64,000 nucleotides of DNA, taken from positions 20,701-84,700 of the IMG/VR virus record IMGVR_UViG_3300045017_000165; one strand, given 5' to 3'. The notes under the pieces were generated by a model. That model did no database searches and was not told the origin of the DNA. It saw only the letters and a program-made list of their open reading frames with translations. A program made the translations under genes and the position numbers. Source of the stretch: a virus. Position 1 is the first letter of the stretch, and each line of letters begins with the position of its first letter. Positions 27,832 to 59,756 of this stretch are shown piece after piece.

Positions 27832-29889
27832 ATGCCAGGTCTTGAGAACCTTTTTGCCGCCGAACCCAAACTTCCTTCAGTTCAAACGCTTAAGATGCCA
27901 GAGAATCCTCAAGAATGGGCAGAAGCCATAACGGTCGCTGCCAGAGAACGCTATCCTGATTTAGCTCATCTACCACTTGTCATTGAATTCCGTAAAAAAG
28001 ACGAGCAAGCCGGCACCGCGGTAGGGGCTATTCACGTTACAAGCGACGACGATAAAAAAACAATCTTTCTCCCGATCGTCATTAAAAAGTTTGAACTATC
28101 ACCTCTCGACGTATGGATGGAAAAAGACACCCAAGCCATTCACCCCATTAAGCCGGATACTTTTAAAAAGGCGTTCTTTAATCCGTCTTCAGCTAAAGGA
28201 CTCGATGTCCGCCCTACAGATGTAGCCGGTCAGTACTTCAACGACCCCTCCACTTGGAGTTCCAACTATCCACCACTCCAAGGTCGATACAGCTACGCTT
28301 CTGCTGGTTATCCAATTCTTGATAGCATTAGCGACACCATCCGAGAAAAAGAGCTGAAAGAGTTTCGTGAAACCCTGCAAAAAAATGCCTTCGTTCTAGC
28401 TAAATTTAAACGCGGTCCTCACTACGAAGTAATTCAAAAGCTAGCGGCTAAAATTCCTACTAAGGATCCCGACTACGTAGCTTCTGCCACTAAGCTTATT
28501 CCGGTGGGAGCGGCTAGCATTAAACGTGAGGGTAAAGATAAGTATTCGGTCCTTTCCATGGCAGACCAAATGTTTGATCTCGCTGCTAGTGAATATCTGG
28601 ACGAGTATAACTGCCGTAACTGGCTTTCAAAAATTACTGCCTTTTGTAAAGACTCTATCCACGACCTTCCACAACAAGGAGAAAAACTCCTTGTAACGAA
28701 ACCGGCTCCGAAAGGAACCGTTTATCTATTTGATCAGACAAAATACTCCCCGGTCAGCGCTGACGAGTTCGCAGCATACGTAGTAAAGACTAAAACCGGT
28801 GTTCAGTCACACGGCGTAGTTTTCCCAAACGTGGTTGAGTTCAACGGTGATAAGGCTCCTGTAAAACTTTTCGTCAGTCAGTCACACTGCAGTTTCCAGA
28901 CAAACATCGCCGGAGAAAAGAAACCAGATAGCGAAATGATGGCTAAAGTTCTTAAGCCATCCGCCGCTAGAGTGGGGCAGACCGGAACATTCGTATTTAT
29001 TGACGATGGTCAGGCAATCGCCACCGTCCCTGTCACAATCAAGGCGATCGAAGAATACGGTCAAGCCCGTATTACCGCAATCAAACTGGATGGCACAAAA
29101 ATCAAAATTAGCCGCGGCTATTCCGACGATCCTCCAAAGATGACAGAAGCGTTGCCGTGTACTAAACCTGCTAAGACTAAAGATAAATTCCTAGATGTTC
29201 ACTCTATGATCGAGGATCGTCCTAAAGAATATACTATTCCAAGATCAATGATCTGGATTCCTATGGAAGGTTTCCAGGAAGTTTCTAGCTCTCCAAAAGA
29301 ATGGATGCAGAAAGAGGCTGCTAAGGTATCTCACGATCCGTTTAACATTCGCTATACAGGCATTGTTTATGAAGCCTATGGTAGTGATATCGAAAAACGC
29401 GCTTTCAGCGAAAGAGAGCTGAAAGTAACCCTAGCCAACAAAGGCGCAGACGCAGAGATGATCGACTCTGTTATCAAAGTTGCGAGGGCTAAAGGTAAAT
29501 GTTGTGTTCACGGTCTTCGACAGCTTAAGAAAAAAGCTGACATTATTAAAGTTGCAACAGATGCCTCCGCACGCTTAGAGAAAGCCTGCGCAGAGCTGAA
29601 GAGAGACTTAGTCAAGTTCGCGGCGGAAGTCGGCGACTCATCAATGACAGTTGATGCCATGTTGTCACTTAACTTTGTAAACCCCGAGAACTTGGCTAAG
29701 TTCGTTTCCTACAAGCCTGTGTTTGAGAAAGTCGCTGACTACCTGGCGGAGCTCTTGATGGCGGCAAGACTGGGTATTAAAGACATGTCCGAGAGTGCGC
29801 TAGTAACTGCGATCGCTCGTATTCAAGAAGTAATCGATGGTCTAGCTAAAGTTCAAACAAGCCTTAGCGGATCAGGAGAAAAGGTTTAA
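27832..29889 (+). CDS. Large virion-associated protein
   Basis: A 685-residue protein of unknown family. The first two thirds look globular with mixed structure and an acidic surface. From about residue 480 on it becomes helical and rich in x-K-x-A motifs (Q-K-E-A-A-K-V, E-K-R-A-F, V-I-K-V-A-R, V-K-F-A-A, F-E-K-V-A-D). Cys-Cys at about 559 is unusual. A GAGGAG site precedes the ATG. It follows the spike genes and precedes a tagged protein, so a virion role is likely. Confidence 0.65.
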   Translation: MPGLENLFAAEPKLPSVQTLKMPENPQEWAEAITVAARERYPDLAHLPLVIEFRKKDEQAGTAVGAIHVTSDDDKKTIFLPIVIKKFELSPLDVWMEKDTQAIHPIKPDTFKKAFFNPSSAKGLDVRPTDVAGQYFNDPSTWSSNYPPLQGRYSYASAGYPILDSISDTIREKELKEFRETLQKNAFVLAKFKRGPHYEVIQKLAAKIPTKDPDYVASATKLIPVGAASIKREGKDKYSVLSMADQMFDLAASEYLDEYNCRNWLSKITAFCKDSIHDLPQQGEKLLVTKPAPKGTVYLFDQTKYSPVSADEFAAYVVKTKTGVQSHGVVFPNVVEFNGDKAPVKLFVSQSHCSFQTNIAGEKKPDSEMMAKVLKPSAARVGQTGTFVFIDDGQAIATVPVTIKAIEEYGQARITAIKLDGTKIKISRGYSDDPPKMTEALPCTKPAKTKDKFLDVHSMIEDRPKEYTIPRSMIWIPMEGFQEVSSSPKEWMQKEAAKVSHDPFNIRYTGIVYEAYGSDIEKRAFSERELKVTLANKGADAEMIDSVIKVARAKGKCCVHGLRQLKKKADIIKVATDASARLEKACAELKRDLVKFAAEVGDSSMTVDAMLSLNFVNPENLAKFVSYKPVFEKVADYLAELLMAARLGIKDMSESALVTAIARIQEVIDGLAKVQTSLSGSGEKV

Positions 29890-31617: not shown

Positions 31618-34560
31618 ATGGGAGACTCAGAGTTAGATTTCTTGCGCAGCGGCAGTACTGACGAGATAGAAGCCAACAGAGCAGCTTCCAGCGATGAGAG
31701 ACTCAAATCTCTAGCCTCTCCGGAACGCGTCGCCAAAGTCATGTCTGCGCTTAAATCTGATGGCTCCACCAAGACCCTGATCAAGGCTAAGAAGTCAGAC
31801 TGGATACGAGCCCTGATCCACCTCGACGGCACTAACTTCGACTTCTCTGGACGCGACTACCTAAAACAGATCTACGATACGAAGCATCCGCATAAACTTC
31901 TTGTCACGGGGCGTCAAGTTGAAAAATGTCAACCGATTTGGTCAACTATTCACAGAAGCGATGGGGGTGAATGTCGCATAGATGAACTTCGCTTAGGGGA
32001 CTCTATCTGCGCCATGAACCAAGGGGGCATACAGACGCAGGACTTAGTGTTAGCCTCGGAATCTAACGGTGTTAAAAAGTGTCTTCGCATAAAAACTCGC
32101 CTAGGCTCTACGATTGAAGCCACGTTGAACCACCCCTTTAGAAAACTACTCACATGGGAGCAAGCCTCTAAGCTAATAGTTGGTGATAAAATCGCGGCAC
32201 TTCGCAGTGTAGGGTTTTTTGGAGATAAGCAAAACGATCTGGCGATGGTAGTGGGGCTTCTGTTTGGAGATGGAAGCTTCAGTAATAGACTCATTTCGCT
32301 GGCGTGTGGAAGAGCTCCTATCCAAGAACTATTTGAAAAAGAGTATATTAGGCTAGAGGGTATAGCGCCTAAGTTTAGTTTGTCGAAAGGCTCAAAAACA
32401 CAACGAACCTATCGAGTCAGTGTCTCTACTAAAATAGCAGCGTGGTTCTACGAGCACGATCTGATAGGTATGGTTGCAAGCATCAAAAAATTACCCGCCG
32501 AAGTTTTCTCTTACAATAAAGAGTCAACTCGAAATTTGATCCGAGGACTTTGGGCAACCGATGGGCATTGTAAGAACGTAACCTCTTCTAAGATTGATTT
32601 AGTTTACTGCTCCACTAGCGAAACACTTGTTAGACAAGTGAGACTACTACTAAGAAAGTTTGGAGTTCTTACAACACTTCGTACGTATAAGCCCCAGCGA
32701 GGACAAAAAGCATTCCTTATTAGAGTAGTCACAAGAAAATCCATAGAAGCTTTTCATCGTGACATTGGACCTATTCCAGGAAAACCATTTAATATTCCCG
32801 GGTGTGAGAGCAATAGCAATTTAGATACTGTCCCTAGAGAAGTACTCAACGTATTGAAGAAAGCAAAACGTGCTGCCGGTTATGGTGGAAGATGGGGCAG
32901 CGACAACAAATGCTTTGAGCGAGATTCAGGGTTCCGGTTTAAGTCAAATTATTGCCCAACATTTGAGAAGTTAGCTGCTGCGCAGTCTTTACTCAACAAC
33001 TCTACCATACAGAAAATCTTAGACTCGGATATTATTTGGGATGAGATTGTATCAATAGAGGATTTAGGAGACCAACCAACGTGGTCTATTCAAACCCAAA
33101 CAGAAACCTACATCTCTGATTTCATAGTCCAGCACAACTCTACAATGCTAGCTAACGAGATCATCATCAACTCGGTAGTGATACCTTATTTCAAAACTCT
33201 ATATGTATCGCCGTCGCATGATCAGACAAGACAGTTCAGCAACGGAAAGTTAAAGCCGTGGATCGAAGATAGTCCTCTTATTCAAAAGTACTTCCAGAAC
33301 TCTGCCGTATCAAAGCAGGTCTTTGAGAAGAGCATGTCAAACGGATCGATTGCGTTTCTCAGGTCAGCTTTTCTAAGTGCTGACCGAACACGCGGAATAT
33401 CTAGTGATATACTATGCTTAGACGAGATTCAGGACATTTTAACGTCAAATATTCCGGTCATTACCGAGACCTTATCGCATAGTAAGTATGGGTATAAGAT
33501 TTTCGCCGGCACTCCAAAGACTCTTGAGAATCCTATCCAGCAGTACTTTGAGATGTCTAGCATGTGCGAGTGGTTGATACCTTGTTTCGCACACTCGCCG
33601 CCGCACTGGAACTACATTGATGAGAAGAGTATCGGTAAGGACGGACCAATATGCAATAAATGCGGCAAGCCCATTAATCCTGCTGAAGGTAAGTGGATAG
33701 CATTCAATGATAGTCGAGATATTCTGGGGTTTAGGATTTCACAGATCATGGTGCCATGGATCTATCAGAATCCTCTGAAGTGGAAGGAGTTCTTGTGGAA
33801 GTACGAGAACCTTTCGAGAGGTATTTTTTATAACGAGTGCTTGGGTATTTCTTTTGACTCCGCAAGCAAGCCTATTACGCGCACTGAATTAGTTGAGTGC
33901 TGCTCGTCAAAACATCCACTACGCTATCATCCAGACTCCTTCACGCATAAGATAGATCTATTTGCCGGTGTGGATTACGGCGAGGGCTCGGACGGAACAG
34001 AACGGGGTATGAAAGGAAGGATGAAGAACGCTTCGTACACAGTTCTTACGATAGGAGTCTATCTCGACCCAACACATTTTCATTACTTATTTATGAAACG
34101 GTATACTGGAGAGGAAGCTCTCCCAGCTAACTGTATCGGTGACATTATAAATATTGCACGAGCGTTTAGGGTTAAGTGCGTTGGTGCTGACTGGGGTCAT
34201 GGATGGGGAGTTAATGAGCAACTGGAAACTGCTCTCGGAAAGTCGCGCGTAATTAAGTTTCAATACGTAGGTAATCAGCGCGAGCGTAAAAAGTTTGATG
34301 AGATAGGACTTAAATACCAACTAGGTAGAACAGAAGTGATGACAGACTTTTTTACAGCAATAAAAAACCACCACATAATTTTTCCGGCATGGGAGTCAGT
34401 TAAAGATTATCTGTGTGATATCGAACATGTTTACGCCGAGTACGGAGATGGGGGAAGGTCGCTTAAGTATGACCACAAACCATCGGAGCCTGATGACGCG
34501 CTTCACTCAATGATTTATTGTAAGGAAGCCGCGGACAACTATTTCGGTAAGCACAAATAG
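31618..34560 (+). CDS. Terminase large subunit with intein
   Basis: A 980-residue packaging motor with an ATPase and a nuclease domain. The Walker A region reads G-R-Q-V-E-K then S-T once the intein (residues 104-507) is removed; mature length is about 576, normal for the family. Walker B is L-C-L-D-E-I-Q-D near residue 600. The nuclease acidic motifs are G-V-D-Y-G-E-G (about 784), G-A-D-W-G-H-G (about 857) and E-P-D-D-A-L-H (about 957). A Cys pair (C-N-K-C) near 680 suggests a zinc ribbon. The usual Gly of the Walker A loop is Glu here. The ATG lacks a strong ribosome site. A terminator follows. Confidence 0.93.
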   Translation: MGDSELDFLRSGSTDEIEANRAASSDERLKSLASPERVAKVMSALKSDGSTKTLIKAKKSDWIRALIHLDGTNFDFSGRDYLKQIYDTKHPHKLLVTGRQVEKCQPIWSTIHRSDGGECRIDELRLGDSICAMNQGGIQTQDLVLASESNGVKKCLRIKTRLGSTIEATLNHPFRKLLTWEQASKLIVGDKIAALRSVGFFGDKQNDLAMVVGLLFGDGSFSNRLISLACGRAPIQELFEKEYIRLEGIAPKFSLSKGSKTQRTYRVSVSTKIAAWFYEHDLIGMVASIKKLPAEVFSYNKESTRNLIRGLWATDGHCKNVTSSKIDLVYCSTSETLVRQVRLLLRKFGVLTTLRTYKPQRGQKAFLIRVVTRKSIEAFHRDIGPIPGKPFNIPGCESNSNLDTVPREVLNVLKKAKRAAGYGGRWGSDNKCFERDSGFRFKSNYCPTFEKLAAAQSLLNNSTIQKILDSDIIWDEIVSIEDLGDQPTWSIQTQTETYISDFIVQHNSTMLANEIIINSVVIPYFKTLYVSPSHDQTRQFSNGKLKPWIEDSPLIQKYFQNSAVSKQVFEKSMSNGSIAFLRSAFLSADRTRGISSDILCLDEIQDILTSNIPVITETLSHSKYGYKIFAGTPKTLENPIQQYFEMSSMCEWLIPCFAHSPPHWNYIDEKSIGKDGPICNKCGKPINPAEGKWIAFNDSRDILGFRISQIMVPWIYQNPLKWKEFLWKYENLSRGIFYNECLGISFDSASKPITRTELVECCSSKHPLRYHPDSFTHKIDLFAGVDYGEGSDGTERGMKGRMKNASYTVLTIGVYLDPTHFHYLFMKRYTGEEALPANCIGDIINIARAFRVKCVGADWGHGWGVNEQLETALGKSRVIKFQYVGNQRERKKFDEIGLKYQLGRTEVMTDFFTAIKNHHIIFPAWESVKDYLCDIEHVYAEYGDGGRSLKYDHKPSEPDDALHSMIYCKEAADNYFGKHK
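31927..33138 (+). other. Intein with LAGLIDADG endonuclease in the terminase Walker A motif
   Basis: About 404 residues. It starts with Cys104 (C-Q-P-I-W-S-T), has a block B T-L-N-H-P, two LAGLIDADG motifs (V-V-G-L-L-F-G-D-G and I-R-G-L-W-A-T-D-G), and ends Y-I-S-D-F-I-V-Q-H-N before Ser508. All residues needed for standard splicing are present. Insertion lies between Lys and Ser of the ATP-binding loop, so the unspliced protein should be inactive. Confidence 0.93.
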
Positions 34561-45185: not shown

Positions 45186-46064
45186 GTGTCGCAATACCGC
45201 TCAAAAGATGTACTGAATGTTCTGGCGAAGTTGGCGGCAGATGGCTATTTGAAGTCTCAGACGCCCTTAAACGAGGGTGTAGCTAAAATTGCTGAGCAAG
45301 AAAGTCTGACTCCAGCACAAGTGGAGTATGTTGCGGCTGAGTCTAATAAGTCCGTATGGCGTAGACTTTTTAGTATGGATAAAGAAGCTTCTTATGATTT
45401 TCCTCTAGCGGATTCCGCAGAGATCATCAGTAAGTTGCAGGTGGAGCATAAACCTAAGACGGTGAAAGAGATTGATTTAGATTATCTCAGCCCACCGATT
45501 AACACTAAATTGGCGGAATTTAACCCTATGAAAGCTATGGGATTTAAAGATGAAGTTTTTGAGAAGCAGGCGAGTACACTGGCTAGAAAGGAACTGAAGC
45601 ATGAACTTCAGGCGCGCTACGAGAAGCTCGCGTTTGCTAAAGAAGAACTTTATAGGTTGGATCTTGAGACATCTACAAAGATTGAAAATCTAGAAGTGCA
45701 GTTTGTTAAAACCGCACGAGCGCTAGTATTAGAAGAGTCGTTTGAAGATAGAGGTATGGCTTTTGAGAAGATCGCTGAGTTTCTTAGAGGCTGCGAAGGT
45801 AAGATGGAATACAAGCTAGGTCTTATGAAAAAGCTAGCTCACGTTGCTGTTAAGCAAGGGATTGTTAAAGAAGCTGATCTTAAAGCTCCTGAGCAGTATA
45901 TAAGCGATAAGCTGCCGGCTCGTATTATTAACGGTAATCACTCCCTCTACATCACCATCAAAACACTGTTCGATAATTACGACTATCATAACGGCATTAG
46001 AGAAAAGAGCTTGATCGTAGACGGCTCACTTCCCGTAGTTAAGGAGAAGATTCGTGAGCTTTAA
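45186..46064 (+). CDS. Helical head-region protein rich in K-x-A motifs
   Basis: A 292-residue protein starting at GTG behind GGGGG. It holds about ten motifs of the type x-K-x-A (A-K-L-A, A-K-I-A, D-K-E-A, T-K-L-A, E-K-Q-A, E-K-L-A, V-K-T-A, E-K-I-A, K-K-L-A, V-K-E-A), spaced about 10-70 residues apart. No enzyme domain. Together with its place upstream of the protease-like and capsid genes, this fits a scaffold, core or internal protein that the maturation protease cuts at several points. It overlaps the next gene by 11 bases. Confidence 0.7.
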   Translation: MSQYRSKDVLNVLAKLAADGYLKSQTPLNEGVAKIAEQESLTPAQVEYVAAESNKSVWRRLFSMDKEASYDFPLADSAEIISKLQVEHKPKTVKEIDLDYLSPPINTKLAEFNPMKAMGFKDEVFEKQASTLARKELKHELQARYEKLAFAKEELYRLDLETSTKIENLEVQFVKTARALVLEESFEDRGMAFEKIAEFLRGCEGKMEYKLGLMKKLAHVAVKQGIVKEADLKAPEQYISDKLPARIINGNHSLYITIKTLFDNYDYHNGIREKSLIVDGSLPVVKEKIREL

Positions 46065-46272: not shown

Positions 46273-47712
46273 GTGAGCGACTTTAATACGGGTTTGAGCA
46301 GCACGATGTTAGAAGAAATTCATTCGTATAAGGATGTTCTTAGTAAGGATGCTGAACTTCTTAAGAATGCTGCCGCAAAAACAAAGGTACTCGAGCACCT
46401 ACCGCTGCTCGGAGGAGCGCTTGCTTGGTCAGCTTTGATGGGCGCTGGTGGGTACTTCCTAGCAAAGAGACGCCACGAGGAGCACGAAAAGCAGCTGAAA
46501 AATAGCTTCAATGCGCTAACTACTACTGACGCGTTTAAGAAAAATCCAGGACAGTATCAGCAGCGTTTCACTGAACTCACCATGTTATCCCCCACTGTTG
46601 CCATGAACCCAAACATGGCTAACAAAGTGATTAAGGATAATCTAGAAAACGGGTTTAATTTGGATGACGTTCATAGACTGTCCGCTGTTGAATACTATAC
46701 GTCTAAGTCAGATAAGCCTGCGCATCCACATTCTGTGGCGGCAAGAAGTGCTTGGTCAGGATTAAGTTCAGCGCTCAGTAATTTGGCGCTGCCTAATTTA
46801 TCGGCATTCTTTGGTGCGTCCCGCGCGTCTAAGGCAACTGAGACCGCTGTCAATAAAGTGCTTAAAGATCAGAAATCTGAGCCCCAAATTCCGCTTCAAC
46901 AAGCGATTAGGGAAATGACTAAAGAAAAAATTCTTGGAGCAATACCGACGCAAGCTCCAGTTATGTCGACTAGTGCTGAACCTTCCGCACCAACGTATAC
47001 TGACGAAATGAAACGCGTTGATGAAATGATTAAAGCCATGCAAATGGCGGGCAAAAAGAGTGGAGGACAAGTGAAACAAAGTTCTGAGATCCAACTTCGA
47101 GTAAGCGATGAATGTATGGGTAGGATGCTAGCAGACAGATACTGTCTTTACAGTATTTCTGAAGGCGCCTTGTCCAAAACTGCTGCAACCTCCGGCTTTA
47201 CAAACACGTTAAAATCCTATCTTTCTGTTGGTGGCAAAGCCATCGATAAGCACTTAAAATCCTATCTTTCTGGTGGTGGCAAAGCCATCGATAAGTACTT
47301 AAAAGTAATGCTCTTGCCCATCGCTATCGGTGGAGGCATCCAACTTATTAAATCGATCCAAAAAAGTCGCGACAACGCCGCTGCGGGTGAAGCCGCTGAT
47401 AAGGTTTTTGCCAGGCTTCGCGCTCAAAGCGACTTGGTGAAAGAAAGCCCAGAGCTAGCTATGCAGGCGTTCGATTCACTAAAAAGTTTCGCTCCAGCTC
47501 TTGCGGCTAAACCCATCATTACCAAGACGTTCGTAGAGGACGTGATTAAGAAACAAGGCTTGCTACCACCGGACACTATCAACATGCTCTCAAAAACAGA
47601 ACAGATGATTCAGCAAGTGAAGGATACGACCGGTGGTCAAGGTTTCATCGAAGGTTTAAAATCTCCGATGTCATTGTTCGGGCACAGTATTAAGGGTTCG
47701 CTTAAGGATTGA
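46273..47712 (+). CDS. Large helical head-region protein with internal tandem repeat
   Basis: A 479-residue protein that starts at GTG. The N-terminus (M-S-D-F-N-T-G-L-S-S-T-M) is a degenerate tag. There are hydrophobic helices near residues 50-63 and 335-357, long Ala/Lys/Gln-rich linkers, and a 15-residue tandem repeat at residues 313-342. Between the halves lies L-S-K-T-A-A-T-S-G-F-T-N-T, which looks like an internal K-T-A site. It may be an internal head or ejection protein. The stop overlaps the next start. Confidence 0.65.
   Translation: MSDFNTGLSSTMLEEIHSYKDVLSKDAELLKNAAAKTKVLEHLPLLGGALAWSALMGAGGYFLAKRRHEEHEKQLKNSFNALTTTDAFKKNPGQYQQRFTELTMLSPTVAMNPNMANKVIKDNLENGFNLDDVHRLSAVEYYTSKSDKPAHPHSVAARSAWSGLSSALSNLALPNLSAFFGASRASKATETAVNKVLKDQKSEPQIPLQQAIREMTKEKILGAIPTQAPVMSTSAEPSAPTYTDEMKRVDEMIKAMQMAGKKSGGQVKQSSEIQLRVSDECMGRMLADRYCLYSISEGALSKTAATSGFTNTLKSYLSVGGKAIDKHLKSYLSGGGKAIDKYLKVMLLPIAIGGGIQLIKSIQKSRDNAAAGEAADKVFARLRAQSDLVKESPELAMQAFDSLKSFAPALAAKPIITKTFVEDVIKKQGLLPPDTINMLSKTEQMIQQVKDTTGGQGFIEGLKSPMSLFGHSIKGSLKD
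47209..47298 (+). repeat. 45-base in-frame tandem repeat
   Basis: Two units of 45 bases encode LKSYLSVGGKAIDKH and LKSYLSGGGKAIDKY. The DNA differs at only two positions, so the duplication is recent. Confidence 0.85.
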
Positions 47713-49655
47713 TGATGGATAAGCGCCTTATTTTTCCTGGCAACACTAACGATAATCGCGACCTCTTTTTCGTTAAGGAAGATCGCAATTATCTTGTTAA
47801 GAAAGCCTCGAATTACCACCCTAAAATTGCGCAGTATATTGAAAAAGCGCAGCCCATAGATGATCTGGTGCAAGTGCTCCTAACGGCTCTGGGCGCTTAC
47901 GAAGCATGGGGTCAGAACGTTAATGGTGACATCTTCAAAATTCCTGCGCTTTCTCACGAGGGAGATGATTACGGCTACCAGACGTTTAAAACCACCGGTA
48001 ATTATTTCACGCACCATAATAACAAGGATCCGGCTTTAGCTAAGGGCAAAGTTCTACACTCAGTGTGGAATGATAAGGCTAAACGAGTTGAACTTGTTGT
48101 CGGTATTAATCCTAAACTGGATCCAGATGCTATTGCTGAGATAAGCAATGGTAACGATCTGTGCTTCTCGATGGGCGCTAAAGTTCCCTACGACGTTTGC
48201 TCAGTATGCGGCAATAAAGCAAAAACTCGGGCTGACTACTGCGAGCACCTTCGCTACATGTTAAACCAGATTGATCCTGTTTCAGGTCTTTTGGTCGGCG
48301 CCGACAATACATTCCCTAAATTCTTTGATATCAGTCGGGTTTTAATACCAGCTGATAAGACAGCTTATATGTGGACAAAGGTAGCTTCAGCTGCCAATCC
48401 ATTTCAGAAACTGAGCAGTTCATTCCTAGCGGCGCTTCCAGCAGGTAAGTTGAATGACACCGAGTTTCTGCAAAAATGCGCGGATGAGCAGGCAGAGATT
48501 GCGCGCGATCGTTTCAGCACCAAGAAGATAGCCGTCGTCAATAAGGATGCCTCCATCATTAAGCGGGTTCCGCTAAAGATTGACGCCAACGCCTCTGATA
48601 AAATAAACGCAGACAGCACAGGTTTAGAGCAACTCGAGTCTAGCGTAGGTACAGCGGCTAAAGCTCTGCAAGCGGTGTCGCCGGACATTCCTAAGGAAAA
48701 GTTTTTAAAAGCTAAAGATAAGTCAGATGCCATTCTGACCATGCTACTTCTAGGAATGGTACCGAAAGTTGGCGAGCTAGATTCGCTCAAAGAAGCGGAT
48801 GAGCCGGCTGCATCATTTCCATCTGGAGTTGCCCACAAGACTGCCGAGGCTTTTAACAGTGAGTTAGCAGAGGATCTATCCGGATTCATTCCAGAAAGGT
48901 CTTTTGCAAGACCTTTCCTGCTTCAAAGATCTATCAAGCTGGCATCTCAATTAGAGCTGGAAAAGACTGCCGAGACAGTGAATGATCTGATGGAGCGAAA
49001 CCGTAATCCTCAGCTTAAACCGTCCCCCATCAGTCCGGAACTACTGGTTGGATCACTTGCCGCCATATTCGCGGCAAGCCCCCTTATCCGTAAGATGGTT
49101 ATGAATAACCCTCTGATTGCTATGGCTCTCGGCGCCGGTCTGTTGGCTGGTGGCAAGACTCTTATAGACACTCCTCCCAGAACTGGTTTTTATGACGTTG
49201 ACGCGGGGATTAGTGGCTTATACAATAAGGGCTGGCAGAGTCGCTTTATGGACTACCAATCGCGTCCTGTCACGGTTATTAAAACCGCTAACGATCGGAA
49301 TGTAGGTTTGTACAAAAAGTTATTTTACGGCGTTCCAGCCATTTATTTAACGTCTAAACTTTATGACACGTACCACGACCTACATCCGGAGAAGCGGCGT
49401 CATCCGGTAATCGGAACCATAGCAAAACATCCAGATTTATTGTCGTTCGGACTCATAGGAGAACACTTAGGTGGTCGCCCCGTCAGTAAGCGGATATCTG
49501 CTTTGCTCGAATCCGGTAAAAGAGCTGTTAAAACAGCATCCTTAAATGATATCGAATTTTTAAGTTCTGCTCCTGAAGAGGAGCGTGAGTTGCTGTGGGA
49601 CTTTGCAATCTTAGATTGCGCAAATCGCATAAGTGACAAGTTGTTAGGAGGATAA
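47712..49655 (+). CDS. Probable prohead maturation protease with C-terminal extension
   Basis: A 647-residue protein. Residues about 50-230 have the pattern of phage prohead (S78/herpesvirus-assemblin-like) proteases: G-Q-N-V-N-G-D-I-F, then T-H-H-N-N-K-D-P with a candidate catalytic His, then I-S-N-G-N-D-L-C-F-S-M-G-A with the candidate nucleophile Ser. A zinc finger follows directly (C-S-V-C-G, D-Y-C-E-H). From about residue 300 the protein is helical, with K-T-A sites and hydrophobic segments (about 435-485). The position upstream of scaffold-like and capsid genes fits. The ATG has AAGGA upstream. By eye; not searched. Confidence 0.7.
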   Translation: MMDKRLIFPGNTNDNRDLFFVKEDRNYLVKKASNYHPKIAQYIEKAQPIDDLVQVLLTALGAYEAWGQNVNGDIFKIPALSHEGDDYGYQTFKTTGNYFTHHNNKDPALAKGKVLHSVWNDKAKRVELVVGINPKLDPDAIAEISNGNDLCFSMGAKVPYDVCSVCGNKAKTRADYCEHLRYMLNQIDPVSGLLVGADNTFPKFFDISRVLIPADKTAYMWTKVASAANPFQKLSSSFLAALPAGKLNDTEFLQKCADEQAEIARDRFSTKKIAVVNKDASIIKRVPLKIDANASDKINADSTGLEQLESSVGTAAKALQAVSPDIPKEKFLKAKDKSDAILTMLLLGMVPKVGELDSLKEADEPAASFPSGVAHKTAEAFNSELAEDLSGFIPERSFARPFLLQRSIKLASQLELEKTAETVNDLMERNRNPQLKPSPISPELLVGSLAAIFAASPLIRKMVMNNPLIAMALGAGLLAGGKTLIDTPPRTGFYDVDAGISGLYNKGWQSRFMDYQSRPVTVIKTANDRNVGLYKKLFYGVPAIYLTSKLYDTYHDLHPEKRRHPVIGTIAKHPDLLSFGLIGEHLGGRPVSKRISALLESGKRAVKTASLNDIEFLSSAPEEERELLWDFAILDCANRISDKLLGG

Positions 49656-49656
49656 C

Positions 49657-50259
49657 ATGGCTTCTATTAAAGAATTGCTGGCTGAATGCAATCTTTCCGA
49701 CCCTCAAACATCTGGGCAGGAAAAAGTAGCAACAGCGGCTAAACCCTCGACCGACGAGATCGATCGAGTTTTAGAAAATCTTGGGCTAAAAGAAGATGGT
49801 CAGGAAAAGACCGCTTCCGCTACCGAGACAGACGGAGGAAATGATATGAGCTTGGCTAATATTTACAATCAGCTGTTCGATACGCAGGAAGTTGAAACTG
49901 CGGTCGAAACGGAAAAAGTTGCTTCAGAAGTTGAAACCAACGAAGAATCTTCTGAAGTCAGCGCGACCACAGCGTTCGGCGAACTCACTGGCGAATACTT
50001 CAACATTATCGCCGCTCCTTTCTTCAGCAAAGTTGCTGGTGAATTGGAAATGGAAGCTGGCAAAGGTGAAAAACCACTCGCTCATCAGCCTAAAGCTGAA
50101 GGCGATGCGCACCTTCCAGTTAACCACAAAGCTTCAGGCGGCGAAGGCTTGAAAGCGATGACCCACGGTGAAAGCCCATATTCTTTGAAAGAAAAAGCTC
50201 TCGCAAAAGCTATTCTTAAGAGAATGATGGCTGCTCCTGTTGGCGCCATTAAAGAATAA
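49657..50259 (+). CDS. Acidic scaffold-like head protein
   Basis: A 200-residue acidic protein (very rich in Glu, Thr and Ala) with repeated Q-E-K-V-A, Q-E-K-T-A, E-K-V-A and F-S-K-V-A motifs every 30-40 residues. Acidic, low-complexity proteins just before the capsid gene are often scaffolds. The K-x-A sites would let the maturation protease cut it into exit-sized peptides. An AGGAGG site precedes the ATG. I infer a scaffold or core protein. Confidence 0.65.
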   Translation: MASIKELLAECNLSDPQTSGQEKVATAAKPSTDEIDRVLENLGLKEDGQEKTASATETDGGNDMSLANIYNQLFDTQEVETAVETEKVASEVETNEESSEVSATTAFGELTGEYFNIIAAPFFSKVAGELEMEAGKGEKPLAHQPKAEGDAHLPVNHKASGGEGLKAMTHGESPYSLKEKALAKAILKRMMAAPVGAIKE

Positions 50260-50270
50260 GGAGTCACACC

Positions 50271-51140
50271 ATGAGTAAAGATATTTTCTCAATGATTGAA
50301 GGCATGAGCGACGTGGAGAAGAACGAACTTCTCAACGCTGAAATTCCAGCTGAACTTGAAAAGCAGGCTGAAGCTGATCTCGATCAAGCTTCGTTGGCTG
50401 ATGCTTTGTACAACTATGGCTGGCTCTCGGCTGAACGTGCGATCGCTGAAGAAGAAGGTCTTGATAAGTTTGCTTCTGAAGATCTCGAAGCTCACGAAAA
50501 TTCTGAAAAAGAAATCGGTGAAGCTATTGAGTCTCTCATGAGCTCACTCGGCGTTGCTGATAGTGAAGATGAAGTTGAACTTCATAAAGAAGCTCAGGCT
50601 GCCGCTTCGTTGATTTTTGAAGGCTATTCGGATTGTTTTGAAAAGCTCGCTGCTAAGCAGAAGGCTAGCTTCATTCAGAACCTCTCGAAGAAGACCATGG
50701 CTGGCTTGAAAGCTGCTAAAGAAAAGACAGTCGAAAAAGCGAGAGAAGCCGCGAAAGCTGCTAAGAAAGGTGCAAAAGAAGCCGTTAAGGGCGCGCACAA
50801 CATCGGCAAAAAAGGTGGCTACGGAGCCATCGGTGGCGCCGGTGCTCTTTATCTTGGCGCGAAAGCTAAGCAGAAGCTAGAAAAGAAAGCTTCTGAAATG
50901 ACCGTCGGTGAACTCTATGAAGGCTTCTCTGAAAAGATCGCAGCCGAAATGGAAATCATGGAAGGCATTGATAAACTCGCCGCTAAAGGTGCGAAGAAAG
51001 CCAAGAAAATTATCCCTTTCATGGCTAAGGTAAAAGAAGTTGCTGAGAAAGCACACAAAGCCGGTAAAAAAGGCTTGTATGCTGGTCTCGGTGGCGCTGG
51101 CGCCGGTTTCGCTGCTGGTAAAGCTAGCAACGAGGATTAA
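50271..51140 (+). CDS. Scaffold or core head protein with glycine-zipper segments
   Basis: A 289-residue protein that starts acidic and ends basic. Motifs of the x-K-x-A class recur (E-K-Q-A, D-K-F-A, H-K-E-A, E-K-L-A, E-K-K-A, E-K-I-A, D-K-L-A). Two Gly-rich stretches, K-G-G-Y-G-A-I-G-G-A-G-A-L-Y and K-G-L-Y-A-G-L-G-G-A-G-A-G-F, are near-repeats at about 182 and 267. Between them lies Lys/Ala-rich helix. It is probably an internal or scaffold component. An AAGGAG site precedes the ATG. Confidence 0.65.
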   Translation: MSKDIFSMIEGMSDVEKNELLNAEIPAELEKQAEADLDQASLADALYNYGWLSAERAIAEEEGLDKFASEDLEAHENSEKEIGEAIESLMSSLGVADSEDEVELHKEAQAAASLIFEGYSDCFEKLAAKQKASFIQNLSKKTMAGLKAAKEKTVEKAREAAKAAKKGAKEAVKGAHNIGKKGGYGAIGGAGALYLGAKAKQKLEKKASEMTVGELYEGFSEKIAAEMEIMEGIDKLAAKGAKKAKKIIPFMAKVKEVAEKAHKAGKKGLYAGLGGAGAGFAAGKASNED

Positions 51141-51143
51141 GAA

Positions 51144-51533
51144 ATGGCTAAGGCAAGAACTCTGAAAGACCTACTAGCTCAAGCTGATGCCTTCGTGAAG
51201 GTCAGTCAGGCAAGCACGTCTAACGAAGTTCTTACCTCTCAAGGTGATGTGGAAGCGCTAGCGAACAAATTAGCTAGCGCTTCCGCTGAAATCCATGTTG
51301 TTAACGATAACGAACTTGATGCGGACTTTGAAAAGCTCGCCGAAAGCTTTAATCGTTACCAGACCGTCCTCGAGCTCAACGAACTTTTTAAAGTAGCTGA
51401 GTTTGAGAATAAAGCCAGACAAGAAGGTTTCAACGACGCACAAATCGCTGAAGCTATTAATAAAATTGCGGCGGAAAAGTTGGCTAAAAACCTTCCTTTC
51501 TTAGCAGCTCTTAAAAGGTCTTGTCAGGATTAA
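51144..51533 (+). CDS. Scaffold-like helical protein
   Basis: A 129-residue helical protein with F-V-K-V-S, F-E-K-L-A, L-F-K-V-A, I-N-K-I-A and E-K-L-A motifs. It follows the preceding gene after three bases and precedes another of the same type. Length and composition match a small scaffold or core protein. No domain recognised. Confidence 0.65.
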   Translation: MAKARTLKDLLAQADAFVKVSQASTSNEVLTSQGDVEALANKLASASAEIHVVNDNELDADFEKLAESFNRYQTVLELNELFKVAEFENKARQEGFNDAQIAEAINKIAAEKLAKNLPFLAALKRSCQD

Positions 51534-51544
51534 GGAGCCGCCAC

Positions 51545-51904
51545 ATGGATAAAGTTATAAAGCTTGAGCACATTAAACTAGCGGGTGATCTTCTTAAACG
51601 TGAACATGCAGAGCGAGTACGACTCGAAAAAGTTGCCTCCGATGCGATTCAAGAGAAGAGAGCGCAAAAAATTGCATTCCGCGAAGTTGAGCTCGGCATA
51701 TCAGAACCGTTCAAGTCTTTTGATGATTTTCAGACTAAGGTAGCAAGCCTGCGCACTGAAAATCTTGAGGTACTTGAGAAAGCGCTAGAGAGAGGCTACG
51801 GCAATTCTCAAAGCTTTGGTGAACTCGACGTTGAGTCGAATAACAGAAAAAATAGGAATCCGTTGGAACATTTCGTTCTTACTGGTGAACTAGAACTCGA
51901 TTAA
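51545..51904 (+). CDS. Scaffold-like helical protein
   Basis: A 119-residue protein starting at the ATG at 51545, which follows AAGGAG; a longer frame has no such site. Motifs of the K-x-A class recur (I-K-L-A, E-K-V-A, Q-K-I-A, T-K-V-A, E-K-A-L), spaced about 10-40 residues. It is highly charged and helical. It lies just before the decoration-like and capsid genes, so it is probably part of the prohead core. Confidence 0.65.
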   Translation: MDKVIKLEHIKLAGDLLKREHAERVRLEKVASDAIQEKRAQKIAFREVELGISEPFKSFDDFQTKVASLRTENLEVLEKALERGYGNSQSFGELDVESNNRKNRNPLEHFVLTGELELD

Positions 51905-52428: not shown

Positions 52429-53349
52429 ATGTCTTTTCAAGAAGAAGCAACAACGTTCAATAATTTGTTCGTTGAGCGTATGGACACCACCGATGGACAG
52501 ATCAAGACAGCTCAGGCTGGTCAAGCTTATGTCCGTTCGTTCTTGCGTGAACATTCGTTCAGCCGCAAAGTTCTTCCGCCCGAGTCTGTGACTCGTTCGG
52601 ATCTTACCCGTTCGACCCGTCATGACACTCTGATGAAGATTGTCGACTTCGAACATCCTTCAACTGCAGCAGTTGTCAACTTCCGCTCAGCCGGTCGTGA
52701 ACGCTACTTGCAGGGCAAGCGCTACGCGGTTCCGTTCTTCAAAGTTGAGAGCGATCTCTTCGTGAAGAATGAAGCTGAGTTGCTTGCTTACGAATATCCG
52801 ATCACCAAAGTGATTGAAGAAAACAGCATTAAAGACATTATGGCTGTTGAAGACTCGGTCTTCATGAATGTCTGTAACGGTGCTGTTACGACTTCTGGTA
52901 AGAAGATCGTTTCGACCGACACCACGGTTACTCGCAGTAACCTCAATAAACTCGTCAAGATGATCGACGTGGACAAGCTCCAGTCAACGATGTTCTTGAT
53001 GACCAACGTCGATTTCGACGATTGGCACGTTCAGCCAGCTACCGACATCGGTTCACCGCTGGCTTCTGAGATCGTGACGAAGGGCTATCAGTACGACAGC
53101 ATTCTTCGCCGCAAGCTCGTTGTGACCAACAAGACCGATTTGTTGGCTCCTGGTCACATCTTTGCTTTCACGGATCCTCAGTTCCTCGGCAACTTCTTCA
53201 TCCTGAACGACGTTAAGTTCTGGATTAAGAAAGAAGCTGATAAGGTCCTCTGGAAGACGTGGGAATACGTCGGCATGGGCGTCGCCAACCTCCGTTCGAT
53301 CGCGAAGATTGAATTGGCTGTTCCAGCGATTCCACATCCTGATTTCTAA
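52429..53349 (+). CDS. Major capsid protein (HK97 fold)
   Basis: A 306-residue shell protein. The pattern (V-L-P-P-E-S-V-T-R-S-D, then R-Y-L-Q-G-K-R-Y-A-V-P-F-F-K-V, Y-E-Y-P-I-T-K-V-I-E-E-N, later W-K-T-W-E-Y-V-G-M-G-V) is that of small HK97-fold capsid proteins in large phages. The first 30 residues contain G-Q-I-K-T-A-Q-A-G, a K-T-A site where the maturation protease could remove an N-terminal delta segment. A very strong AGGAGGAGG site precedes the ATG, and a strong terminator follows, consistent with high expression. Confidence 0.85.
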   Translation: MSFQEEATTFNNLFVERMDTTDGQIKTAQAGQAYVRSFLREHSFSRKVLPPESVTRSDLTRSTRHDTLMKIVDFEHPSTAAVVNFRSAGRERYLQGKRYAVPFFKVESDLFVKNEAELLAYEYPITKVIEENSIKDIMAVEDSVFMNVCNGAVTTSGKKIVSTDTTVTRSNLNKLVKMIDVDKLQSTMFLMTNVDFDDWHVQPATDIGSPLASEIVTKGYQYDSILRRKLVVTNKTDLLAPGHIFAFTDPQFLGNFFILNDVKFWIKKEADKVLWKTWEYVGMGVANLRSIAKIELAVPAIPHPDF

Positions 53350-54489: not shown

Positions 54490-56811
54490 ATGTTTACATC
54501 AGGATTAAATAAACTAGCCGCATTAAAACCCGGAGTTAAACTCAATCCTATTCAGGTGGGAGCTGTTAAGAGAGTGGAAGATGGTGATGGTTCACACGTC
54601 TTTGCTCACGACGTCGGCTTAGGTAAAACGCTCACTTCTATAGCAGCGTTTGAAAAATTGAAAGAGATGGGTAGAGCGACTAAAGCATTGGTTATAGTAC
54701 CAGCGACGCTTAAGGATAATTTTGTTACCCATGGAGTACGAAAATTTACTAACAGCTCTGTCCATAGAGTAGACGATGGTAAGGAAAAACTTGATCCAAA
54801 GAAAACTTATAACGTCATAAGTTATGAGCTCTTCAAAAAAGACCCCGCTAGATACGTTGCCGAATCTGGTGCCGACACTATCATAATGGATGAAATGCAT
54901 AGAGTGCGCGACGAGGGTACGCAAAACTACAAGAAGTCCTTAGAAGCCCGCGGAATGGTTAAAAACTTCATAGGCTTAACCGGCAGTGTTATTAACAATA
55001 GCCCTAAAGAAATAGTTCCAATGTTGGATGTGGTCACTAATAGAACTCATCCTTTTGGCAGTAAAGACTCCTTTTTGAACAAACTATTCACGGAACAGGA
55101 AAAGAAAACGGGAGTACTGGGATTGTACGGAAATACAATCACCACTTGGGAACCAAGAAAACCTCCCGAGTACATCGGAAAAACGTTGAAAAAATTTATC
55201 GACTACAAAACGGTGCAGGATATAGATTCCAAAGACCTGCCGAAGCTAAAGGTTTCAGAGATTAAAGTGCCGATGTCGGAAGCTCAAGCCGATGTGTATA
55301 GGTGGGCTTTGAGAGAAGCCGGTCCTATAGCAGAGCGGATTGTCAGTTCTAATTTGCCAGTTGATCAAAAAGAAGCCTCACATGTATTCGCGAAGATTTT
55401 GAAAGCTAGACAGGCGTGCAATGCGATACATCTATTTAAAAAAGATATGACGCTTTCAGAGTCCGCTGTCAAAACTCCTAAAATTAAGAAAATTTTAGAC
55501 GACGTAGAGGAGCACCTGAAAAGTGGTGATGACCACAAAGTAGTTGTGTTCAGCAATTTTGTGCACGGTGGTACGGACGTAATTAGCCAGGGGCTGAAGG
55601 ATCGCGGTATTGAACACGGCTTGTTTCTAGGCTCTGGTCAAGAAGGCAGCACAACTAAAAAAAGAGCGGCGGCTGTAGAAGCCTTCAACGCTAATAAAAC
55701 TAATGTAATCGTATTATCTGGAGCGGGTGGTGAGGGGATCTCTTTTCCAAACGCTACTCTGCATGTATCTGTCGACGGTCACTATAACCCTGAAAAAATT
55801 AATCAAGCTGAGGGAAGAAGTAGACGTTTCGGAGGACAGCAGCACAGGGAGCCAGAACAAAGGTCAGTTGAAGTGAGAAGATATGTGTCTACTATACCCA
55901 CCACTAGAAAAGCGTTTTCTGTTGTCGGAGCATTAGCAGCAGGAAAACCATTAGACGCGCTGGATATCGTTACTGGTAAGGAAAAGAGCGCGGATAGTGC
56001 TGACCAGTGGGTTTACGCGGTAGCGAGTAAAAAACAAAAAATGAACGATCACCTTAAAAATATAATAAAGACCGCATCTTTGAAAAAAGACGAGGAGCTT
56101 GAGCGTTATTTAGAAGGAACAACCACGATTAAATTGCCGACGAAGTATAGTAAGGTTCTGCATCAGTACTACGCTAAGATTAAAGATAGACCGCAGACAG
56201 TCGCCACGTTGCAAGCTAGACTTCAGGATGATTTGGACTCTTTGCTTTCTAAGCATGAAAAAATGCAGAACACGTCGGCGCTACGAAATTACACCACTAT
56301 GTTCATACCCTCATTCCTGACTTCCTACCTACTAGGAGCGGGACAGCTTCAGATGCGGCTAGGAAAATTGGATAGAGTTGCACATGATACGAGAATTGAT
56401 TCGCACGATTTTTTGAAAACATCCGCACAAAGTGACTCCTACAGCTCAAAAAAACGGGACACGTATAGCAAAAGCATTGCGGCAATAGGGCTAACTCCGT
56501 TGGCATTAACTTTGGCTGACCTAGCACTTAAACATCGATCAGCTGGATATCGCAACTTAAGAAAAACGTTGCCGGGTAAGGTAGGATTTGTCGCTGCCAA
56601 TATAGCAATACCGTACGGATTGGGATATTATCTCTTTCCTAAAAAAGCTCCCGTCAACGCCAAAAGCATTAATACGGCAAATCTATTAGCCCACGCTGAC
56701 GACAAAACCTACGACACACTTCTATCTGGCGGGGGGATAAAGATCAAAAGAAAATCCCTATATGATACCGGCGCGGCTGAGAACGTACTACGGCGTTGGT
56801 CCGACAGATAG
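54490..56811 (+). CDS. Tagged SNF2-family helicase
   Basis: A 773-residue SWI/SNF2-type ATPase. I use the ATG at 54490, which gives M-F-T-S-G-L-N-K-L-A, a variant tag; an earlier frame start overlaps the previous gene. Motifs: Walker A D-V-G-L-G-K-T near residue 40, I-I-M-D-E-M-H-R near 133, then V-V-V-F-S-N-F, G-A-G-G-E-G-I-S-F and N-Q-A-E-G-R-S-R-R-F-G-G in the second RecA domain (about 350-460). The last 250 residues hold K-T-A and K-T-S-A sites and two hydrophobic stretches. It translocates on DNA and remodels protein-DNA complexes. In a virion operon with a capsid tag, it may be packaged and ejected. Confidence 0.88.
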   Translation: MFTSGLNKLAALKPGVKLNPIQVGAVKRVEDGDGSHVFAHDVGLGKTLTSIAAFEKLKEMGRATKALVIVPATLKDNFVTHGVRKFTNSSVHRVDDGKEKLDPKKTYNVISYELFKKDPARYVAESGADTIIMDEMHRVRDEGTQNYKKSLEARGMVKNFIGLTGSVINNSPKEIVPMLDVVTNRTHPFGSKDSFLNKLFTEQEKKTGVLGLYGNTITTWEPRKPPEYIGKTLKKFIDYKTVQDIDSKDLPKLKVSEIKVPMSEAQADVYRWALREAGPIAERIVSSNLPVDQKEASHVFAKILKARQACNAIHLFKKDMTLSESAVKTPKIKKILDDVEEHLKSGDDHKVVVFSNFVHGGTDVISQGLKDRGIEHGLFLGSGQEGSTTKKRAAAVEAFNANKTNVIVLSGAGGEGISFPNATLHVSVDGHYNPEKINQAEGRSRRFGGQQHREPEQRSVEVRRYVSTIPTTRKAFSVVGALAAGKPLDALDIVTGKEKSADSADQWVYAVASKKQKMNDHLKNIIKTASLKKDEELERYLEGTTTIKLPTKYSKVLHQYYAKIKDRPQTVATLQARLQDDLDSLLSKHEKMQNTSALRNYTTMFIPSFLTSYLLGAGQLQMRLGKLDRVAHDTRIDSHDFLKTSAQSDSYSSKKRDTYSKSIAAIGLTPLALTLADLALKHRSAGYRNLRKTLPGKVGFVAANIAIPYGLGYYLFPKKAPVNAKSINTANLLAHADDKTYDTLLSGGGIKIKRKSLYDTGAAENVLRRWSDR

Positions 56812-56828
56812 TTTCAGGTGGAAAGACT

Positions 56829-57158
56829 ATGTTTTCGTTAGGCTTTAAAAAAATAGCCTTTGTCTCCAAGCACACCAAAGAAAAGCTTATTAAGTCTACG
56901 CCTAAAGAGAAGGGTGGTAAGGATGGCAAGAGCAGTTATTTCTTGCGTTTCCATCCCAAAGAAAAACGGTGGAGTTGTACCTGTCCTGACTGGCAAATAC
57001 GTAGAAGGTGGCTGGGGAAAGAACACAAGAAGCACCACGACTGCAAGCATATCAAAGCGCACTTAAGCCGTACGTCTGTGTGGAAGACTAAAGAAAAGAT
57101 GCGCAAGTATCCGAAAGAAGTTTTGGAAAGTCTCCGCGAGGAAAGATCTTCCAAATAG
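56829..57158 (+). CDS. Tagged SWIM zinc-finger protein
   Basis: A 109-residue basic protein starting M-F-S-L-G-F-K-K-I-A at the ATG at 56829 (GGTGGAAAG upstream). Near residues 54-80 it has W-S-C-T-C-P-D-W and H-D-C-K-H, the C-x-C-x(n)-C-x-H pattern of SWIM zinc fingers. In cellular proteins SWIM domains are often fused to SNF2 helicases; here the SNF2 gene lies 17 bases upstream, so the two probably act as a split pair. SWIM domains bind DNA or proteins. Both halves have the tag. Confidence 0.8.
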   Translation: MFSLGFKKIAFVSKHTKEKLIKSTPKEKGGKDGKSSYFLRFHPKEKRWSCTCPDWQIRRRWLGKEHKKHHDCKHIKAHLSRTSVWKTKEKMRKYPKEVLESLREERSSK

Positions 57159-57229: not shown

Positions 57230-57349
57230 TGAGTAGGGGAGGGGCGGTTCTCAACTCCAACTCGGAGGCGGTGCCGTTCAGCACTGATGACTCGTTGGCA
57301 AGCGACATGGAAGTTGTTGTCAAAGGAATCGAAGGCTCGTTTAACTAGG
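57230..57349 (+). CDS. Possible small ORF
   Basis: Thirty-nine codons (ATG at 57230 to a stop at 57349) just after TATACT, which could be a -10 element. It overlaps the start of the 57287 gene in another frame. No ribosome site. It may be a leader peptide or an artefact. Confidence 0.2.
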
Positions 57350-58111
57350 TATGCGCGTTGTGGGGTCAGCAATATAAAGCGAATGCGTCTTGGGATGTTT
57401 CTTCCAAGACTGGATAAAGAAAGCGCTCGAAGAGCGAATAGGATAGCTGAGCACACGTTTAAGATAAGGCTCCGTAATAGACTTGTGAAGTTAATGACTG
57501 CACGTACGCATCCTTTTGCCGTGTTTTCGAGGGACTTTACTGGATTTATAGGCATGCCTCCAGATCCAGTGCGCGAAGCTGAGGTTAGTGGTTACCTTGG
57601 GCGCGGCGCTAAATCAGGTCGTGGGCATTATAAGATGGCTACGCTCGCTCACGAGTTTTCAGAGTTATACGTTATGCATAACAAAGCAAAACGAAACTCC
57701 TTTGGGAAACTTCTTCGTAAGCATAAAAGCCTATATGATGGTTGCCACGACCACAGTAGTGCTCATCCGCTGATTGCAGAACTGAATCATGCGGGTAAAT
57801 GCGTGCCAGTGCTTAAAGCAGTGCTGAGCGAGTGGAGCCGTGCAGGCGCGCAAGCTAAGGTATTTGCTGTCATGAAGCAGTGCGGTTGGACTCCCGTTAG
57901 GGGCATTCCAATGTATGGGAGGGCGGCTGGGGCTATTCAAAGGAAGTCGGAGGCTCTATTTGCCCCATACTTCAAAAAACTTATGGGTAGGAAAATTAAG
58001 CGTTTAGAGCGAAAATACAAAGGTAAGGCTTTGGTTAAACGGTTAAAGCTTCTTCTGCAGGATGTAAAAACATATGCGGGAGGGGCGGAGTTTATGAAAG
58101 AATTTAAATGA
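57287..58111 (+). CDS. Basic hypothetical protein
   Basis: A 274-residue, highly basic protein of unknown family with Cys and His residues (A-R-C-G-V, Y-D-G-C-H-D-H-S-S-A-H). The segment T-L-A-H-E-F-S-E-L-Y could be part of a metal site but lacks the full HExxH form. The start is uncertain: ATGs at 57383 and 57395 are also in frame, and the early codons overlap a short ORF. The tail end overlaps the next gene by four bases. Basic charge suggests DNA binding. Confidence 0.55.
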   Translation: MTRWQATWKLLSKESKARLTRYARCGVSNIKRMRLGMFLPRLDKESARRANRIAEHTFKIRLRNRLVKLMTARTHPFAVFSRDFTGFIGMPPDPVREAEVSGYLGRGAKSGRGHYKMATLAHEFSELYVMHNKAKRNSFGKLLRKHKSLYDGCHDHSSAHPLIAELNHAGKCVPVLKAVLSEWSRAGAQAKVFAVMKQCGWTPVRGIPMYGRAAGAIQRKSEALFAPYFKKLMGRKIKRLERKYKGKALVKRLKLLLQDVKTYAGGAEFMKEFK

Positions 58112-59023: not shown

Positions 59024-59350
59024 ATGTTTAAAATTGGATTTGAAAAGACAGCCGTCTCTGTGGGGTGGGCGATGAGAAAAATACAGGGCGGTCTAAGAAC
59101 AAGAGCGGGATTGCCCAGAGACCCCTCTAAAGTCGATCGCTTCATCAACCGCAGTCGTAGCGCGATGTCACGTGAGCTAGGTGACTCTCCAAAAGAGATT
59201 AAAAAACTTATGACCTTGCCAGTCCGTCACTACAAGGACGAAAATGTACTGGAGCTTGTTAAGGAGCTCAGGGATACTCGCAACAATCCGTCTAAAGCGC
59301 TGAAGAAACTTCTGCAGTCGGAAGTTTTCTTGAACAAAGCTGGAGCGTGA
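59024..59350 (+). CDS. Tagged basic small protein
   Basis: A 108-residue protein starting M-F-K-I-G-F-E-K-T-A-V at the ATG at 59024 (AGGGAG upstream). It is basic and helical, with a final K-K-L-L-Q-S-E-V-F-L-N. The next gene begins M-F-K-V-G-F-E-K-T-A, so the two tags are nearly identical, though the bodies differ. Internal head protein candidate. Confidence 0.72.
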   Translation: MFKIGFEKTAVSVGWAMRKIQGGLRTRAGLPRDPSKVDRFINRSRSAMSRELGDSPKEIKKLMTLPVRHYKDENVLELVKELRDTRNNPSKALKKLLQSEVFLNKAGA

Positions 59351-59351
59351 T

Positions 59352-59756
59352 ATGTTTAAAGTTGGGTTTGAAAAAACAGCCCTAGACCCGAAGAAGTTAG
59401 AAACGCGCTTGCAAGAGATTCTTAAACATAAGCGCTTTGCAGGCAAGGCTGCGAAGACTCAGGCTCTTAATGCTGCTGACGAGTACAGAATCGCTAGATC
59501 TACAGGGCAGTCGGCACTTCCACATATTCACAGTCTTCAAAAGCAGTTCCCGAAACTAGCCGCGCTAAAACCGTTTACTATGAGTCGCGGTAGGATTACA
59601 CCTACGCTTATCCCGGGTAATCCCGTGAAGGGATTGAAGGGTTTGACTGGAGCGCAGGCTGCGACACCGTTTAATAAGGCTGTAGGTAGGTTTGGACACA
59701 AACCTAGACAAGCACTTGTAGCTAAATCAAACGTAAGAGCTAATGATGGGACTTAG
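59352..59756 (+). CDS. Tagged basic protein
   Basis: A 134-residue basic protein starting M-F-K-V-G-F-E-K-T-A-L. After the tag it has a helical region and a Gly/Pro-rich segment (L-I-P-G-N-P-V-K-G-L-K-G-L). It starts one base after the preceding stop and overlaps the next gene by 14 bases. High Lys/Arg content suggests DNA association inside the head. Function unknown. Confidence 0.72.
   Translation: MFKVGFEKTALDPKKLETRLQEILKHKRFAGKAAKTQALNAADEYRIARSTGQSALPHIHSLQKQFPKLAALKPFTMSRGRITPTLIPGNPVKGLKGLTGAQAATPFNKAVGRFGHKPRQALVAKSNVRANDGT

Follow-up and report, generated by a model that had tools for sequence, protein, structure and literature searches.

A shared N-terminal peptide probably marks a late phage SNF2 ATPase as protease-processed head cargo

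RESULTS

A tagged SNF2 ATPase and a tagged SWIM protein beside the head genes

Why should a phage encode an SNF2-family helicase and a SWIM zinc-finger protein side by side near its head genes, each opening with nearly the same short peptide? We examined this question in a window of 64,000 nucleotides (bases 20701–84700 of the 84.7-kb IMG/VR virus record IMGVR_UViG_3300045017_000165), using sequence-based methods throughout. Coordinates are those of the window, and the head genes, the tagged genes and the RNA polymerase gene described below all lie on its plus strand. The initial annotation had suggested that, if the N-terminal peptide (hereafter the tag) marks packaged cargo, the two products may be a split DNA-remodelling machine injected with the genome. 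In our analysis, the best reading of the tag is a capsid-targeting sequence with a site for the phage's own head protease at its end, and the SNF2 protein is probably head cargo that would be freed by cutting in the prohead. The PHROGs matches that define the setting of the pair are a major capsid protein gene starting at 52429 and a head protease gene starting at 47709.

The SNF2 open reading frame (ORF) begins with an ATG at 54490 and its stop codon ends at 56811, giving a 773-aa protein with an intact ATPase. Pfam reports SNF2-rel_dom (2.4e-21) and Helicase_C (2.8e-12), and the Walker A motif GLGKT, DEMH and QAEGRSRR are all present, as expected of an SNF2 ATPase. The protein falls into three parts. 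Its tag, MFTSGLNKLA (54490–54519), has L where F is usual and shows low AlphaFold2 (AF2) confidence (pLDDT) over residues 1–10; it is proposed to be a capsid-targeting peptide with a protease site of the form lysine, any residue, alanine (K.A) at its end. The ATPase core (residues 11–529, 54520–56076), recognized by Pfam, AF2 and Foldseek, holds all helicase motifs, matches ISW1, SNF2h and Ino80 in structure searches and is the proposed mature cargo. A KTA site at residues 527–529 (56068–56076), in which K527 and A529 are invariant among five aligned homologues, forms the C-terminal border of the core. Behind it, a helical module (56077–56808) with a low-confidence fold contains two mildly hydrophobic 19-residue segments with Kyte-Doolittle (KD) values of 1.74 and 1.36. 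AF2 confidence is high over most of residues 11 to about 530, dropping near 210 and at 491–498, and its boundaries coincide with the two K.A sites.

The SWIM ORF follows from an ATG at 56829 to a stop ending at 57158 (109 aa) and matches PF04434 at 7.4e-5, exceeding the curated cut-off. The only K.A of this protein lies in its tag, MFSLGFKKIA (56829–56858); the zinc-finger body (56859–57155) carries a C50-x-C52...C72-x-H74 pattern that is invariant in an alignment across two SWIM relatives.

The tag is shared by otherwise unrelated proteins

The tag consensus MF..G[FL].K.A is found on 14–15 proteins of the window, and the presence of two neighbouring tagged genes, as initially annotated, is well supported: 14 of 145 first-ATG ORFs carried the tag, against a mean of 0.23 and a maximum of 2 in 300 shuffles. 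When this record and seven relatives were scanned with a regular expression, 98 tag-like N-termini were returned, or about 8–21 tagged proteins per sampled relative, both counts including a few doubtful ones. Ninety-six otherwise unrelated proteins align at the tag only, and the tag terminus is a K.A preceded by a hydrophobic residue; in some relatives the tag is of a W type, FW.GFEKRA. A short N-terminal peptide common to unrelated, presumably head-associated, proteins is the hallmark of capsid-targeting sequences of the T4 and P1 type. Two further tagged ORFs (59024–59350 and 59352–59756) lie downstream in the same region. Elsewhere, a tagged NUDIX hydrolase (L076, 3951–4484; PF00293, 5.7e-18) is likely another enzyme cargo, and a tagged 230-aa ORF (L056, 4014–4703) has, on visual inspection, a kinase-like GKGGEG loop and no Pfam match.

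The end of the tag recurs in the capsid propeptide and the head protease

The same motif is found where a head protease would be expected to cut. In the major capsid protein (52429–53349; phrog_2522, 1.5e-18; 39 loci), the N-terminal propeptide contains a KTA site at residues 26–28 (52504–52512) that is kept in all 33 rows with an N-terminus. The propeptide motif, a hydrophobic residue followed by K.A with one position between, is thus invariant in 33 of 33 relatives, among them Salmonella phage Arash and Vibrio phage D69 at about 30% identity; no paper on Arash was found under that name. The head maturation protease (47709–49655; phrog_18299, 2.4e-8) consists of an N-terminal domain (residues ~34–223) and a K.A-rich extension. 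T4 gp21 was its top match in a fold search (probability 0.92 but E 0.08), and the putative catalytic residues H102/H103 and S154 (S154-M-G) are invariant, as in a gp21-like protease. A K.A at K31–A33 (47799–47807), invariant in 16 of 16 aligned proteases, is a proposed self-cleavage site, and another directly past the protease domain (K224–A226, 48378–48386) is kept in at least 90% of the 16. In one relative (L023, 3524–6598), the head protease is apparently interrupted by an intein exactly at the catalytic S-M-G.

Most core proteins encoded around the protease in the window have an excess of K.A sites, with z-scores up to 5.8. They include a head-core protein at 45186–46064 (10 sites, z 4.4) and four head-core or scaffold candidates at 49657–51904 (4–14 sites apiece; z 1.3, 2.8, 2.5 and 5.8). 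Core proteins of Arash and D69 are likewise K.A-rich; no tag was seen in the stretches of these two phages that were read. No excess was seen in the RNA polymerase, the DNA polymerase, SNF2 or the tail genes tested in the window; two ORFs outside the head-core cluster are also enriched, one at 91–1188 (366 aa, 16 sites, z 6.0), far from that cluster, and one at 27832–29886 (685 aa, 13 sites, z 2.3). Glutamate precedes the lysine (P4) at 15 of 52 core sites vs 3 of 53 background sites (p = 0.0018) and in 37 of 92 tags, and a hydrophobic P5 does not separate the two classes (26/52 vs 19/50, p = 0.24); the K.A counts contain near-duplicates in places. Covariation of protease and tag through a clade-specific P2 was considered and rejected, as W-type tags favour R, K or Q at P2 and the core sites of the same relatives do not. 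At the level of the motif, the tag thus ends in the predicted head-protease site of the capsid propeptide.

These matches bear on the alternative of cytoplasmic late enzymes, in which the tag of SNF2 and SWIM would be a localization or assembly signal unconnected with packaging. Such a role would suit the cultivated Arash, whose SNF2 is untagged; but the tag ends match the capsid-propeptide and protease sites and K.A sits at the SNF2 domain edges, and we regard this alternative as improbable. Because the tag behaves as a capsid-targeting sequence with a protease site, SNF2 and, through the same tag, SWIM are probably packaged.

K.A sites frame the SNF2 core in homologues

Among 25 SNF2 homologues, 21 have a K.A immediately N-terminal to the core, whether the core opens the protein or follows a hydrophobic module (L024, L039, L108 and L112). 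Beyond the core, a K.A occurs in 11 of the 12 whose C-terminal tail is long, vs 2 of 12 with a short one or none (Fisher p = 6e-4, ignoring shared ancestry; L025, cut by its contig end, was left out). In L025, the SNF2 ORF reads through to a second complete tag in the same frame, and in L106 (67–4786), two SNF2 ORFs stand on one contig with K.A before both cores and the full GF.K.A tag only on the second.

The hydrophobic segments beside the core in many homologues, together with six tagged proteins that match a Gly-zipper family, would also fit a membrane-anchored motor that reels the genome into the cell. The conserved K.A sites would sever such a motor from its modules, homologues without modules are common and the segments are mild (KD 1.2–1.8), so that we give this possibility little credence. 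It is also rather unlikely, if conceivable, that the prohead protease processes the late SNF2 as a polyprotein, releasing a DNA motor that lies between membrane-inserting modules, so that one gene would yield both a channel part and an engine working on the incoming genome.

The late SNF2 is distinct from replication-type paralogues

None of the SNF2 proteins of the replication type, which were read in five relatives, carries the tag. Two of these relatives (G012 and G016) encode one alongside the late SNF2, the type found in the window, and the other three (G002, G005 and G006) have only the replication type as far as searched. In the SNF2 tree, from which the DarB domains were excluded as too diverged, four of the five replication-type paralogues were placed and make up a separate clade; the late SNF2s group with those of Arash and PA-SR01 in another (100/99). 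A replication or repair role of the late SNF2 was rejected, given that relatives possess a separate untagged replication-type enzyme and that two of them have both types. The tag, the K.A sites at domain edges and these untagged paralogues together make it probable that the late SNF2 is head cargo, and we hold its packaging and cleavage to be quite likely.

SNF2 and SWIM do not form a split machine

The proposal of one split machine, modelled on bacterial SNF2 enzymes fused to SWIM, did not survive comparison among relatives. SNF2 and SWIM are adjacent in the window and separated by one gene in L008, and the pairing occurs in two contigs besides the window's own. However, SWIM relatives were found in three IMG/VR contigs only, with no INPHARED match, and the curated SWIM cut-off was reached in 0 of 27 related records, the majority of them with a late SNF2. 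In L005, SWIM stands at the equivalent position but SNF2 is absent from the interval up to the capsid gene, and none was found in the 10.8 kb of this contig. SWIM-fused bacterial SNF2 enzymes carry SNF2_assoc, which Pfam did not report for the window SNF2 at E <= 1; the two genes are neither fused nor a conserved pair. We therefore rejected the split machine as very improbable. SWIM is likely a separate cargo item, which would contact nucleic acid or protein.

Possible roles of the SNF2 motor in the cell

A candidate partner is the phage RNA polymerase (16477–24144), a single chain of fused beta and beta' with an intein bearing a LAGLIDADG-type domain; it has no tag. The partnership is suggested by gene order. 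The late SNF2 directly follows the RNA polymerase in Arash and G012, one tagged gene separates the two in G016, and in L110 SNF2 lies about 1.2 kb beyond the polymerase end; the Arash and G016 proteins belong to one SNF2 subclade, those of G012 and L110 to the other. A RapA-like partner has likewise been suggested for the helicase of phiKZ-group phages (PMC7824862). Several observations weaken the case: 30 kb separate the two genes in the window, G002 and G005 have the polymerase and no late SNF2, and RapA is just a weak profile match. Of 18 SNF2 contigs, 16 also encode the polymerase, yet this co-occurrence is weak and adds little because every near-complete member checked has a polymerase. 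Membership of the window SNF2 in the RapA family was rejected, given low similarity and no RNA-polymerase-binding N-terminal domains reported by Pfam; the core begins at residue 11. Action beside the phage RNA polymerase is accordingly a tentative proposal, the first among three that also include DNA protection and, last, the entry motor.

Protection of incoming DNA against host defence, or its clearing, would follow the precedent of P1 DarB, an SNF2-bearing virion protein with a short N-terminal targeting sequence (PMC9024508; PMC5512222) and an anti-restriction role (PMC5512222; PMC9024508). Three of five late SNF2s scanned matched the DarB-like phrog_10089 (window, 2.6e-4; G012, 3.2e-9; L112, 8.4e-9), and two replication-type paralogues did not. 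However, the match is limited to about 70 residues surrounding Walker A, it is absent in G016 and in the second SNF2 of L106, and the DarB SNF2 scores weakly against the late-SNF2 profile. DarB-type polyvalent proteins are very large and join SNF2 to an adenine methylase; Pfam gave no methylase match in the 773 aa of the window SNF2. This role is possible, with a lower probability than that of a polymerase partner.

Other genes of the window

Downstream of SWIM, the ORF at 57287–58111 contains an AHEFSE stretch judged zincin-like on visual inspection and has no Pfam match; its homologue comes after SWIM in L005. The ORFs starting at 60688 and 62599 are sheath- and tube-like by appearance alone, with no useful match in PHROGs or Pfam for the former or in Pfam for the latter. 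A 980-aa large terminase ORF (31618–34560) has an N-terminal half that matches phrog_9666, phrog_30356 and phrog_510 (helicase, primase and unnamed families) and not terminase; another intein is probably present. A patatin-like phospholipase (6838–7659; PF01734, 3.2e-26) is encoded near tail-fibre-like genes.

DISCUSSION

We propose that the tag carries SNF2 and SWIM, as two separate items, into the prohead core, where the T4-gp21-like head protease would cut after K.A and remove it. A second cut at the KTA behind the SNF2 core would free a motor of about 519 residues from both the tag and the C-terminal module. The two proteins would then leave the head together with the DNA at infection, and the SNF2 core would act inside the cell as a double-stranded DNA translocase on the incoming genome. 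The phage's own RNA polymerase would be its favoured partner, for clearing or recycling of the kind performed by RapA or poxvirus NPH-I, with DarB-like protection a close second. We consider the model as a whole reasonably likely. The sequences directly show the tag, the agreement of its end with the sites in capsid protein and protease, and the K.A at the domain edges of homologues; packaging, cleavage, ejection and cellular role are what we infer from them. Of the initial annotation, the idea of packaged cargo is supported for SNF2 and, by its tag, for SWIM, and the split machine is not.

Some observations pull the other way. Tagged proteins could be structural parts of the head that do not leave it at infection, the tag is the sole argument for the packaging of SWIM, and four late SNF2s (L008, L126, L127 and L121) have no K.A just ahead of the core, in addition to the untagged Arash protein.

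If the model is correct, an F..GF.K.A start would denote head cargo, the cargo list of a whole clade of large phages from the environment could be read from sequence and the set of injected proteins from metagenomes. The predicted cleavage rule would apply to two kinds of cultivated relative, represented by Salmonella phage Arash and Vibrio phage D69, whose capsid protein would be expected to begin after KEA. A packaged SNF2 motor would also be linked to a phage-coded RNA polymerase, with a bearing on how transcription starts in such phages.

T4 Alt and P1 DarB, named in the initial annotation, proved apt comparisons, the former with the T4 internal proteins. The T4 capsid-targeting sequences (of IPI–III and Alt) and gp21 resemble the present system, gp21 being the best fold match of the window protease. 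T4 cleavage occurs after L/I-x-E, in contrast to K-x-A here, and the relatives studied here differ from T4 in using one near-uniform tag on about 8–21 proteins each. P1 DarB, a virion protein, shares with the window SNF2 its helicase family and, under the proposed model, N-terminal targeting, for which 30 residues suffice in P1 (PMC9024508). The Dar N-termini have no consensus (PMC9024508), unlike the shared tag, and in the window the SNF2 core stands alone between K.A sites, with no methylase domain seen.

The SPN3US/phiKZ group, with its ejection proteins and the prohead protease gp245, has many head proteins and a virion RNA polymerase, and propeptides are removed there at a P3-x-P1 motif (A-x-E) (PMC10052503); phiKZ-group phages often encode an SNF2-type helicase beside RNA polymerase genes (PMC7824862). 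These phages differ in having mostly long propeptides, with about 80% of head proteins uncut, and the phiKZ group-1 helicase is described as Rad25-related, unlike the SNF2 here. RapA and NPH-I, finally, offer the likeness of SNF2-family ATPases that work with RNA polymerase, and poxvirus NPH-I is present in virions; similarity to the window SNF2 is low, the RapA N-terminal domains are not seen and the partnership proposed here comes from gene order.
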